Below, piece after piece: positions 15,765 through 20,462 of a stretch of 63,457 bases of DNA (the first letter of the stretch is position 1; each line of letters begins with the position of its first letter). The stretch covers positions 1 to 63,457 of the forward strand of contig JAJYAG010000017.1 of NCBI GenBank assembly GCA_021779665.1. Direction: 5' to 3'. This DNA is from Bacteroidota bacterium. Lineage in GTDB: Bacteria > Bacteroidota > Bacteroidia > Bacteroidales > JAAUTT01. The notes under the pieces are model-generated. The model did no database searches and had not been told where the DNA came from. It saw nothing but the letters and a program-made list of their open reading frames with translations. The position numbers and the translations under genes were made by a program.

Positions 15765-16610
15765 ATGGCAAAGAATAATTTTTTGTCGACTCTGCTATGC
15801 GGATTACTTGTTATAACTGCATGTAAATCGACCCAACAACCTAACGGAACTGACAGTGAAACCCAATCCGATTCTATAGCTTTAATGGATTCAGCAGTCA
15901 TTGAGGATGGAGGCATTCGCATTTTTTATAACATGTATCTTTCTGTTGAAATGAATACATTGTTTAAAACCATAAATGCAACTTTCGACAAGAATTTATT
16001 AAATCCTTACGAAAAGGCAAGTGAATATGAAATTAGCGGCGAAAAGGCTGTTAATTTAGGTGTATATGCCGTCGATCTGAGTTATTCACGCGCATTCGAA
16101 CAGATAGAGTTTGCAGGAAATTACCTGAAAGCAATGCATAAGCTTGCCACTGAGTTAGGGATTCCCAGTGATAAATTCTCCCTGTCAGTCAAGAGAATTG
16201 AACAAAATGTTTCCAATAAGGATTCTCTTGTAAAAATTGCGAATGAACTCTATACCGCGGCTGAAACATATTTAAAAGACAGCGACCGCGCCAGTTCTGC
16301 AGCTCTTGTTGTTCTCGGCGGCTGGACCGAAGCGCTATACATTGCTACCAGCATGGTTAATAAGAAACAGAACGACATTGAGCTTCTGGAGCGAATTGCT
16401 GATCAGAAGAGTTCACTCAAAAATCTGATTGAGTTACTGAGTAAATATAAAGGAGATAAAAATGTAGATCCTTACCTGGAAAATCTGAATAAACTTTCGG
16501 TGTCGTATAACTCATTTGTAGTTGACGAAAAAAATATGGATGTTACTTATAAGCAATTGGCCGAAGTAAGTTCGATGGTTCAAATGCTCCGTAAAGATTT
16601 GGTTGACTAA
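15765..16610 (+). CDS. Lipoprotein, paralogue A of a two-member family
   Basis: 281 residues with a type II signal peptide (lipobox ITAC, Cys20), so it is lipid-anchored. The rest is helical. It aligns end to end with the lipoprotein at 19545: shared landmarks are 'TFDKNLLNP', 'NLGVYAVDLSY', 'GGWTEALYIAT' and 'RIADQKSSL'. The invariant 'NLGxYxxDLSYxxxFxQ' and 'GGWxExLYIAT' stretches suggest a defined fold with a conserved surface. I do not recognise a function. It lies upstream of corA, and a strong terminator separates them. Confidence 0.8.
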   Translation: MAKNNFLSTLLCGLLVITACKSTQQPNGTDSETQSDSIALMDSAVIEDGGIRIFYNMYLSVEMNTLFKTINATFDKNLLNPYEKASEYEISGEKAVNLGVYAVDLSYSRAFEQIEFAGNYLKAMHKLATELGIPSDKFSLSVKRIEQNVSNKDSLVKIANELYTAAETYLKDSDRASSAALVVLGGWTEALYIATSMVNKKQNDIELLERIADQKSSLKNLIELLSKYKGDKNVDPYLENLNKLSVSYNSFVVDEKNMDVTYKQLAEVSSMVQMLRKDLVD

Positions 16611-16628
16611 ATTTTACCTGAATATAGG

Positions 16629-16662
16629 AGAGGCAATCAGTTTTGGTTGCCTCTTTTTTTTT
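16629..16662 (+). terminator. Intrinsic terminator after lipoprotein A
   Basis: AGAGGCAA (16629-16636), 10-base loop, TTGCCTCT (16647-16654), then a run of T. Confidence 0.9.
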
Positions 16663-16691
16663 AATATGGAATCAACTAATCGAAATGTGAT

Positions 16692-16699
16692 TATATTTG
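16692..16699 (+). promoter_or_regulatory. Probable -7 element of the corA leader
   Basis: TATATTTG is a full match to TAnnTTTG and lies about 285 bp before the corA ATG. It predicts a start near 16706 and therefore a leader RNA of about 275 nt. Confidence 0.5.
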
Positions 16700-16705
16700 C
16701 AGCGA

Positions 16706-16982
16706 AAACCAATTTTAATTTCATATGGACGAAGGCCCTGCGAATTGTAAAAACATAAACAAAAACTAAACCGGCGATCCATATTATTATTGAGCCTCCG
16801 GGATAAAAAACGGATGCTCATGAGAAGTCAGATCTTATTTTCAAATCAGTTAATCATTCTACGCCGAAGAGTATTGTTATACTGCAACCGGGATAAATAC
16901 CGAAGTTGATGCAGGAATTGTTACAAACAATTCCGCCCTGTCGTTCCCACAATTTTAGCATCAACTTTTAATTTTATCTATC
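16706..16982 (+). promoter_or_regulatory. Structured 5' leader of corA with mutually exclusive stems (riboswitch-like)
   Basis: This 277-bp gap is not empty. Hairpin A (16791-16820) is TGAGC-c-TCCG / CGGA-t-GCTCA with loop GGATAAAAAA. Hairpin B (16882-16914) is CTGC-AAC-CGG / CCG-aa-GTT-gat-GCAG with loop GATAAATA. Both loops carry the same GGATAAA-like core. A third structure C pairs AAGTTGATGC (16903-16912) perfectly with GCATCAACTT (16958-16967); it encloses a perfect 9-bp hairpin (16914-16934) and is followed by TTTTAATTTTAT. B and C share bases, so only one can form. C can act as a terminator or hide the start region. No known riboswitch consensus (M-box included) fits. Confidence 0.55.
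16725..16769 (+). CDS. Possible 14-residue leader peptide upstream of corA
   Basis: The ORF MDEGPANCKNINKN starts about 20 nt after the predicted transcription start and ends before hairpin A. Acidic residues next to proline at the very N-terminus (D-E-G-P) recall the enterobacterial mgtL-type leader, where such codons destabilise the ribosome when Mg2+ is low. That parallel is inference; the ORF is short enough to occur by chance. Confidence 0.25.
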   Translation: MDEGPANCKNINKN

Positions 16983-17912
16983 ATGATTACAATCTGGAAA
17001 CAAGATAACGGGCTGGTTCAGGTTAGCCGCTTTGAAAGAAATACATGGATCAATGTTATTAGTCCTTCGCAGGAAGAAATAGAAAAACTTATTAATTACT
17101 ACAGAGTTCCCTCAGAATTTATTACTGACATTCTCGATATTGACGAAAGATCGCGCAGCGAGGTTGAAGGCCGCTGGTTAATGATTATTCTTCGTATTCC
17201 TGTTCATAGCCAAACAAACGGTTTACCTTTTTATACAGTGCCACTTGGTGTTTTAATATCTCATAATCTCATTATCACTATTTGTAATAACGACAACGAA
17301 ATTGTCAGGGAGTTGCTGTTCAACCCCAAATACCGCAACCTTAAGCTCACCGATAAGGCAAATTTTGTGCTTCAGCTGTTTTTCTGTTCAGCAACTTCAT
17401 TTCTTAGGTATTTAAAGGATATTAACCGCATGACCAATCAGGTTGAGCAGGATCTTTTAAAATCTTCCCGAAATAAGGAATTGCATAATCTTCTCAAAAT
17501 GGAGAAATGTCTTGTTTATTTTGTGACATCTCTCAAATCAAATGAGTTGTTGCTTTATAAACTTCAGCGGTCGAAACTGGTGAATCTGGAGGAAATTGAC
17601 GAAGATCTTCTGGAAGACGTTATTACCGAAAATAAACAGGCTATTGAAATGTCGAACATTTATAGCGACATTCAGAGCGGTATGATGGATGCATTTGCTT
17701 CGGTAGTTTCAAACAACCTCAACGTTGTGATGAAACAACTTACGTCCATTACCATTATCTTAATGATCCCCACATTAGTTGCAAGCATATACGGGATGAA
17801 TGTTCCCAACTTTATGGAAGACAACCCTTATGCATTTGTCATTATTCTTTGTATGACCGTTGCCTTTACAACTCTTGGAGTACTAATATTCAGAAAGAGA
17901 AATTTCTTTTAA
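16983..17912 (+). CDS. corA: CorA-family divalent cation transporter
   Basis: 309 residues. The large N-terminal cytoplasmic domain is followed by two C-terminal membrane helices, the first ending in the signature YGMN (270-273, 'SIYGMNVPNF') that forms the selectivity filter. The end is basic (FRKRNFF), as usual. CorA forms a pentameric inner-membrane channel for Mg2+ (or Co2+/Ni2+ or Zn2+ in some branches). The gene is preceded by a long structured leader, which suggests RNA-level control. Its stop codon overlaps the convergent rmuC stop. Confidence 0.93.
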   Translation: MITIWKQDNGLVQVSRFERNTWINVISPSQEEIEKLINYYRVPSEFITDILDIDERSRSEVEGRWLMIILRIPVHSQTNGLPFYTVPLGVLISHNLIITICNNDNEIVRELLFNPKYRNLKLTDKANFVLQLFFCSATSFLRYLKDINRMTNQVEQDLLKSSRNKELHNLLKMEKCLVYFVTSLKSNELLLYKLQRSKLVNLEEIDEDLLEDVITENKQAIEMSNIYSDIQSGMMDAFASVVSNNLNVVMKQLTSITIILMIPTLVASIYGMNVPNFMEDNPYAFVIILCMTVAFTTLGVLIFRKRNFF

Positions 17913-19544: not shown

Positions 19545-20462
19545 ATGTTTAGAAAAAAGTACCTTTCACAAGTTTCTTCTTTGTTTATAATTTCCTGTTT
19601 TGTCGTAGCAACCTCCTGTAAATCGGGTGGGGGTGATAACTCAAATAATCTGGCAATTGATTCATCTGATCTTGAACAGGATATTTTTGAAGACATCAGT
19701 ACAGCCAAACAAATTTTCTATTCACTTCCATCTCCGTTGGAATCGGCAATGCTGATCAAATCGTCAGGAGCAACCTTTGACGAAAAGCTTTTGAACCCTA
19801 CAAATAATACCACCAAATATACCACCAACAAGAGTATGGCATTAAACCTGGGCGCTTATACCACCGACCTGAGTTATGCCAGTTTGTTCGACCAGGCCCA
19901 GATCACCATTTCCTATATGGATGCTTCCAAAAAAATGGCCGACGGTTTGGGAATACTCGATGCAATTGATAAGACAACCATTGACCGTTTGGAAGAAAAT
20001 ATTAACAACCGCGATGTGATATTGGATATTATTTCTGAAACTTTCATGTCGTCAACCTCGTTCTTAAAGGAAAATGAACGTCAGTCACTTTCATCTATAG
20101 TTATGGTAGGAGGATGGATTGAAGGTCTTTATATCGCAACTCAGCTTGTTGGAGATAAATTTTCGGCCGACTCAAAAATTGTTGAACGCATTGTTGATCA
20201 AAAACTTTCGCTGGATATGGTAATGAAACTTCTCGAAAGCAACAAGACCAACGAAGATGTAGCTGCAATTATCACTGAAATGCAGGATCTTAAAACCACT
20301 TACGACAAGATCATTATCAAATCGTCGAAGATTGAACCAGTTCTCGATGAAAATACCAAGGTAACTACCCTTAAATCAGAATCTTCCTCCAACATTAATG
20401 AAAGTATTTTTGTGGAATTGCGTAATAAAGTAAAAAATATAAGAACTAATTATACGCTCTAA
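19545..20462 (+). CDS. Lipoprotein, paralogue B of a two-member family
   Basis: 305 residues; type II signal peptide with lipobox ATSC (Cys25). It is homologous over its length to the lipoprotein at 15765 ('ATFDEKLLNP', 'NLGAYTTDLSYASLFDQ', 'GGWIEGLYIAT', 'RIVDQKLSLD'). It differs by a longer C-terminal tail with a Thr/Ser-rich segment (TKVTTLKSESSSN). The function is unknown. A small secreted protein gene follows 12 bp later and is probably in the same transcript, ending at a strong terminator. Confidence 0.8.
   Translation: MFRKKYLSQVSSLFIISCFVVATSCKSGGGDNSNNLAIDSSDLEQDIFEDISTAKQIFYSLPSPLESAMLIKSSGATFDEKLLNPTNNTTKYTTNKSMALNLGAYTTDLSYASLFDQAQITISYMDASKKMADGLGILDAIDKTTIDRLEENINNRDVILDIISETFMSSTSFLKENERQSLSSIVMVGGWIEGLYIATQLVGDKFSADSKIVERIVDQKLSLDMVMKLLESNKTNEDVAAIITEMQDLKTTYDKIIIKSSKIEPVLDENTKVTTLKSESSSNINESIFVELRNKVKNIRTNYTL

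Follow-up and report, generated by a model that had tools for sequence, protein, structure and literature searches.

Directly upstream of corA in this Bacteroidota genome lies a 5′ leader that probably carries a Mg2+-responsive leader-peptide attenuator resembling mgtQ and mgtL of Salmonella. The window we analysed is the whole stretch of 63,457 nt (Bacteroidota bacterium GCA_021779665.1, contig JAJYAG010000017.1, positions 1–63,457, forward strand), and its relevant features are collected in Table 1. This reading draws on four properties of the sequences: a conserved ORF, synonymous codon exchange within it, complementarity between RNA arms that exceeds chance across the set of related leaders, and the occurrence of such leaders before several families of Mg2+ transporter.

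The original prediction for this region was a riboswitch-like corA leader built on two GGATAAA-loop hairpins and mutually exclusive stems. The cis-regulatory leader with mutually exclusive stems stands, but an aptamer made of the two loops does not, and neither the promoter box (16692–16699) nor the leader ORF (16725–16769) was part of that prediction. Because the loops are not conserved while the peptide ORF is, with synonymous variation, a ribosome on the leader ORF is a likelier sensor than a metal-binding RNA fold.

Table 1. Positions of the leader features and corA in the window.
Feature	Position	Strand	Remark
Promoter box (TAnnTTTG), TATATTTG	16692–16699	+	Leader ORF ATG 33 nt after the start of the box
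Leader ORF, MDEGPANCKNINKN-stop	16725–16769	+	258 nt upstream of the corA ATG
Local stem, leader start CATATGGACG (16722–16731) with CGATCCATAT (16775–16784) just past the leader stop	16722–16784	+	Predicted in the minimum-energy fold
Hairpin A, GAGCCTCCGGGATAAAAAACGGATGCTC, GGATAAA loop	16792–16819	+	Present in the sequence; not conserved in relatives
Hairpin B, CTGCAACCGGGATAAATACCGAAGTTGATGCAG, arms CTGCAAC / GTTGATGCAG	16882–16914	+	Candidate counterpart of arms 2 and 3
Stem C, 5′ arm, AAGTTGATGC	16903–16912	+	Wholly within hairpin B
Stem C, 3′ arm, GCATCAACTT	16958–16967	+	16–25 nt before the corA ATG; candidate arm 4; no Shine-Dalgarno sequence
corA, Mg2+/Co2+ transporter gene, 309 aa	16983–17912	+	PF01544, 8e-50

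The window CorA also matches TIGR00383 (9e-35), with a score of 120.6 bits that is below the cut-off of 200.75. Two lipoprotein-like genes (15765–16610 and 19545–20462), alike by eye and without a Pfam match, flank the corA/rmuC pair.

The leader ORF and its occurrence

We took corA homologues from whole genomes (72 of 99 relatives match; 30 loci taken) and from named genome contigs (at least 80 loci), and examined 102 corA upstream regions, recognising leaders by their peptide motif. A strict leader starts M[DE]..P or MDD[YH].. with an ATG; the spurious TTG ORF of L003 was removed before leaders were counted, and L094 has no upstream DNA. Among the matches listed, a leader ORF (MDEGP... or MDDYH...) is found in 64 of the 102 regions, comprising 59 strict leaders with ATG, one strict leader with TTG (L065) and four looser ones (L019, L021, L052, L073). 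Named loci from Bacteroidota, Chlorobiota, Ignavibacteria and allied MAGs have it in 44 of 46 cases among the matches listed (L052–L093, L095, L098, L099, L101; absent at L055 and L092), and whole-genome loci in 18 of 23 (L001, L003–L024; absent at L003, L007, L010, L017, L023), these being groups that overlap (e.g., L010/L092, L011/L093) and include MAGs whose names are possibly wrong. Among the matches listed for the remaining 33 loci, two near-identical Bacillota MAG loci (L128 and L129) have a leader, and archaea, other Bacillota, spirochaetes and the rest of that group have none. In 51 of the 59 strict corA leaders among the matches listed, the ATG is preceded at 27–40 nt (median 34) by a TAnnTTTG box, which we take to be the Bacteroidota-type −7 promoter consensus.

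What is conserved is a peptide-coding ORF with synonymous codon exchange, which would be translated. Across the 41 class-A leaders, Pro5 is encoded by CCG in 22, CCT in 15, CCC in 2 and CCA in 2; codon 3 is acidic (Glu or Asp, four codons used) in 34, and codon 4 specifies Gly, again through four codons, in 30. Pro5 belongs to the search motif, but an earlier, laxer set had Pro in 37 of 39 leaders and Ser in 2, and with leaders at 44 of 46 named loci the ascertainment loss is therefore small. In 50 of 53 leaders the codon for Asp2 is GAC. The RNA is therefore under constraint as well, which may reflect pairing of arms 1 and 2 (described below). Class B (MDDYH-like) comprises 18 leaders, 17 of which have no Pro5. 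Near the end of the ORF, 23 of 42 class-A leaders have the word TTAAC; its reading frame is not always the same, so conservation seems to act on the RNA.

A DNA search of the 99 relatives with the window leader found no second full copy, and the best match outside the window's own genome (E 6e-5) is a short repeat. A covariance search, which had been proposed as a check, did recover the element: a model (R1) built from relatives, with the window excluded, has its sole reported match in the window's own genome at 16694–16822 (E 0.003). Among 395 genomes of the phylum, R1 matches six including the window's own, under strict filters that do not measure prevalence; G482 has two matching corA leaders, G491 a PRC-type gene and G197 an ATPase gene. 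No leader gene is seen at the match in G168 (L173), and the one in G370 (L172) is the start of gldE itself. A strict phylum-wide pattern gave three matches in two genomes, all in coding sequence and none outside it. The element looks uncommon across the phylum. At L172, GldE (which matches TIGR03520 below cut-off) starts MDDDPYPS, resembling the leader peptide, and similar sensing might act on GldE's own N-terminus.

Alternative stems in the relatives and in the window

Canonical leaders have, downstream of the ORF, CTGTAAGG, then CCTTACAG and finally TGTAAGGAG, which is the Shine-Dalgarno sequence. Arm 1 consists of leader codons 2–6, arm 2 lies at or just past the leader stop, and after it come arm 3 and arm 4, the latter formed by the Shine-Dalgarno sequence of the transporter gene. 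Pairing of arms 1 with 2 and 3 with 4 (1:2 + 3:4) would conceal the start site, and pairing of 2 with 3 (2:3) would expose it. In an alignment of 26 leaders, the 2:3 stem is 95.7% paired, and 4 of its 8 base pairs show substitutions on both sides; for the 3:4 stem the figures are 93.4% and 5 of 10. Slid versions, and almost all shuffles, score lower than either stem. The arm sequences differ among lineages while complementarity is retained, and conservation in the alignment is concentrated mainly in the peptide codons, the arms and the start codon.

The arm and accessibility tests began with 60 leaders with GAA or GAC at codon 2 (L013, L015, L128 and L129 left out). Removing near-duplicates at 85% left 54, from which we dropped L021 for the summed arms (53) or both L019 and L021 for the swap tests (52). 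When a leader's own Shine-Dalgarno region is ranked against swapped ones for pairing with its own upstream arm, the median rank is 0.14 (below 0.1 in 23 of 52); for codons 2–6 with their own arm 2 it is 0.24 (below 0.1 in 14 of 52). Against shuffles, 1:2 pairing reaches P ≤ 0.05 in 15 of 52 leaders and the summed arms in just 16 of 53, so most single leaders are non-significant, and since related sequences are not independent, all of these P-values, and those that follow, are optimistic and indicative only.

Accessibility of the Shine-Dalgarno sequence is 0.16 in native leaders vs 0.38 in shuffled ones (63 leaders, a set limited to lengths up to 160 nt and adequate Shine-Dalgarno matches, hence without the window). 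With a modelled ribosome at codon 5 it becomes 0.25, and with one at the stop 0.13. The early-minus-stop difference lies above shuffles (P 1.5e-7), the early-minus-free difference at P 0.016 only, and in just 12 of 69 leaders (the 52 plus 17 further ones) does a codon-5 ribosome raise accessibility by more than 0.2. Among ribosome-free folds of 15 leaders, at least five have 1:2 + 3:4 (L063, L068, L180, L185, L188) and others, such as L088 and L214, have no 1:2. Taken as a set, the canonical leaders of the relatives have the alternative stems 1:2 + 3:4 and 2:3, and their arm 4 lies at the start site.

From the peptide and the arms we infer translation of the leader, its dependence on Mg2+, the direction of the switch and the use of stem C in the window. 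Transcription from the promoter at 16692 would give an mRNA that begins with an ORF for a short, acidic peptide containing Pro (M-D-E-G-P...). On a leader without a ribosome, 1:2 + 3:4 would form and the start site would be concealed; a ribosome at the leader stop would cover arm 2, leaving 3:4 to conceal the start site again. A ribosome stalled or lost at the acidic and Pro codons would let arm 2 pair with arm 3, so that the start site is exposed and the importer made. Low Mg2+ would favour this 2:3 outcome because acidic/Pro N-termini destabilise ribosomes under Mg2+ shortage, the precedent being MgtL, whose EPDP motif is described in PMC11282234 as causing ribosome drop-off at low Mg2+.

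The window copy retains the promoter box and an intact peptide start; it has no Shine-Dalgarno sequence, and 112 nt separate the leader stop from hairpin B. Both predicted hairpins are present in its sequence, and stem C, a perfect 10-bp pairing, does share bases with hairpin B, its 5′ arm lying entirely inside it. The two compete and are mutually exclusive. The predicted T-rich run is there as a T-rich stretch reaching to the corA ATG at 16983, but it is interrupted. An intrinsic terminator at stem C was rejected by eye on account of its 45-nt interior and the interrupted T run. Thermodynamic folding, another suggested check, gave z −2.55 against shuffles for the 291-nt region (2 of 200 shuffles equally good), and since the opposite strand is nearly equal (z −2.12; 5 of 200 equally good), energy by itself tells little about strand. 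The duplex containing stem C is stronger than all 200 dinucleotide shuffles.

The B/C alternative of the window could stand for arms 2, 3 and 4. Its 1:2 pairing has P 0.49 against shuffles and its 3:4 swap rank is 0.19, and its accessibility is 0.00 in all three modelled states, so the modelled ribosomes change nothing. It is possible, though on the whole unlikely, that decay, or rearrangement through an insertion, has left the window element with its promoter and peptide but a dead switch, stems A–C being by-products. The long spacer, the lack of a Shine-Dalgarno sequence and the lack of a modelled ribosome effect all suit such decay, as does the stretch 16873–16898, which matches, in 25 of 26 bases, a terminus of an element that is dispersed in G051 and has inverted ends (L162–L167), so the spacer may hold a mobile-element relic. 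However, stem C is far stronger than shuffles, the peptide start is intact, and in the homologue L005 corA is likewise preceded by a long leader that includes an arm pair.

Genes that follow the leaders

Two patterns that fix GAC at codon 2 were used for searches. The gene-blind pattern, ATGGACGANGGNCCNTAYCA, gave nine matches in nine of 393 genomes of the order, six before corA (assigned by sequence) and three before mgtE (L180, L181 and L185, assigned by Pfam). The same-genus pattern, ATGGACGANGGNCC, gave five matches in five genomes of the window's genus, all of them leaders (the window, L210, L211, L213 and the porin locus L037); G003, whose corA leader reads MDDYHSSC, had no match to it. 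The porin gene at L037, in a genome of the window's genus (G004), is of the OprB family (PF04966, 3e-32), follows the leader MDEGPATRLLTVSMER and is a candidate outer-membrane Mg2+ channel.

PRC/CBS/MgtE_N genes, taken regardless of leader, carry one in all six cases (L210–L215, although Pfam reports no PRC domain for L215). An Nramp gene lies 3′ in five of the six (L210–L214), and at L215 no Nramp ORF was found within the remaining 1488 bases; L171, an R1 match, is also PRC-type. Full-length MgtE loci have a leader in 1 of 24 cases (L188); for L207, the window's own MgtE, there is none. For P-type ATPases there were 30 loci, 19 of them over the Mg-ATPase cut-off and one (L223) with no usable frame; of the 29 examined, one has a leader, the weak case L218 (a 41-aa ORF 424 nt upstream). 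A strict leader precedes 74 of the 786 genes that have 300 nt of upstream sequence (61 corA, 7 PRC-type, 4 mgtE, 1 porin and 1 chance-looking gene at L060), a count that tests specificity and not prevalence because most loci were taken via Mg2+ genes or leader patterns.

A broader proposal, which we consider evenly poised, is that the MDEGP and MDDYH peptides form one Mg2+-sensor family of Bacteroidota and their allies, its gauge being the stability of the translating ribosome. The family would have been recruited before unrelated importers (CorA, MgtE, PRC/CBS/MgtE_N with Nramp, perhaps MgtA) and an OprB-type porin, together making up a Mg2+ regulon, and would mark unassigned genes as Mg2+ uptake genes. 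If so, Mg2+ sensing via ribosome stability either has more than one origin or has become widespread, and the leader is a sequence tag that would point to genes for Mg2+ uptake, those for Nramp-type transporters and an OprB-type porin among them.

The genes that follow also bear on the cue. The same architecture would suit any cause of ribosome stalling or loss, such as charged tRNA, polyamines, EF-P or general ribosome stress, and PMC8092293 describes mgtM and mgtP, leader ORFs of mgtCBRU, as responding to ATP and charged tRNA-Pro. However, an attenuator for a cue other than Mg2+ seems unlikely here, as Mg2+ transporter genes from several unrelated families follow such leaders and the peptides have no run of one amino acid's codons. 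It is quite improbable that the leader ORF mainly raises or couples transporter translation by reinitiation, with no switch: leader ORFs can increase downstream translation, as PMC4833913 describes, and canonical leaders do stop close to the transporter start, but the arms are complementary to the Shine-Dalgarno sequence, its accessibility is much lower in native than in shuffled leaders (0.16 vs 0.38), and conservation lies at the first codons, not at the leader stop.

Known systems and other short ORFs

The shared GGATAAA loop core, which the original prediction took to be meaningful, occurs in 2 of the 59 strict corA leaders (L001, which is the window, and L072) among the matches listed. 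In the window, CCGGGATAAA has four exact copies, of which the two outside hairpins A and B (41619 and 43170) are within ORFs, and 16 copies at up to one mismatch vs 4.6 expected; CCGGGATAAANNNNCG, also at up to one mismatch, has 50 matches in the window's own genome vs 11 for the reversed pattern. In relatives the loops are not conserved but the alternative stems are, complementarity of the corresponding arms being kept. The region was also predicted to fall outside the M-box and other known classes, and indeed neither the window nor 19 loci have any Rfam 15 match at gathering score; a lax Rfam search of 16580–17010 gave only matches below gathering scores. A metal-binding riboswitch, whose RNA would bind Mg2+, Ni2+ or Co2+ via the GGATAAA loops and so switch stems B and C, is very improbable: mutually exclusive stems do precede a metal transporter gene, but the loops are in two of 59 leaders among the matches listed, the arms differ between lineages yet stay complementary, the conserved blocks are mainly peptide codons, arms and start codon, and Rfam has no match.

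M-box and NiCo riboswitches are metal-responsive leaders of metal transporter genes, and they are aptamer RNAs, unlike the leader described here, which reaches the threshold of no Rfam family in the window or the 19 loci. A Mycobacterium paper reportedly deals with an M-box/uORF. The closest parallel for a leader-peptide attenuator is mgtQ of Salmonella, where, according to the account in PMC8092293, the ribosome-binding site of mgtB is concealed by 1:2 + 3:4 and released by 2:3, with Asp2 and Glu5 both required. As described there, mgtQ is an 8-aa ORF with Asp2, Pro4 and Glu5, and it shares with our leaders the stem alternatives and the control of Mg2+ transporter translation. However, mgtQ lies between operon genes (PMC8092293), whereas the element here is a 5′ leader that has a promoter box of its own, occurs in Bacteroidota and allied groups, encodes a different peptide and precedes several transporter families.

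The mgtL leader of mgtA in E. coli and Salmonella is likewise described as encoding an acidic-Pro peptide (EPDP), with read-through lowering and drop-off at low Mg2+ raising Mg2+ transporter expression (PMC11282234, PMC11552253). Its output in those accounts is Rho-dependent termination, whereas here the arms would act on the Shine-Dalgarno sequence. For corL, before corA in the same species, PMC11552253 describes a leader ORF and two alternative structures that control corA, but with few acidic or Pro residues and an action through Rho. The corA motif of Gammaproteobacteria is also a conserved structured RNA directly upstream of corA; in the account given in PMC6429828 all 325 representatives are gammaproteobacterial or metagenomic, and the motif is presented as a riboswitch candidate with no leader peptide mentioned. 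The leader-peptide control of Mg2+ transporters described in PMC8092293, PMC11282234 and PMC11552253 is enterobacterial, and our search of open-licence PMC papers found no description of a leader like the present one. What appears to be new here is a Bacteroidota counterpart, akin to mgtQ and mgtL in its proposed function and its layout.

Two other kinds of short ORF were seen upstream of corA. In Geobacillus/Anoxybacillus (L118, L121, L124) there is a short ORF with EPEPEY, which is acidic and Pro-containing and unlike MDEGP. The distant CorA paralogues L002 and L025–L031 have no strict leader. In this distant second CorA subfamily, a start codon immediately adjoining a stop (AUG, then UAA or UAG, in the context GRATGTAR) often occurs shortly after a promoter-like box. 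The start-stop word is present in all seven of L025–L031 by eye and in 4 of 20 further upstream regions (L252, L256, L262, L264), and it is possibly an element controlling second-subfamily corA.
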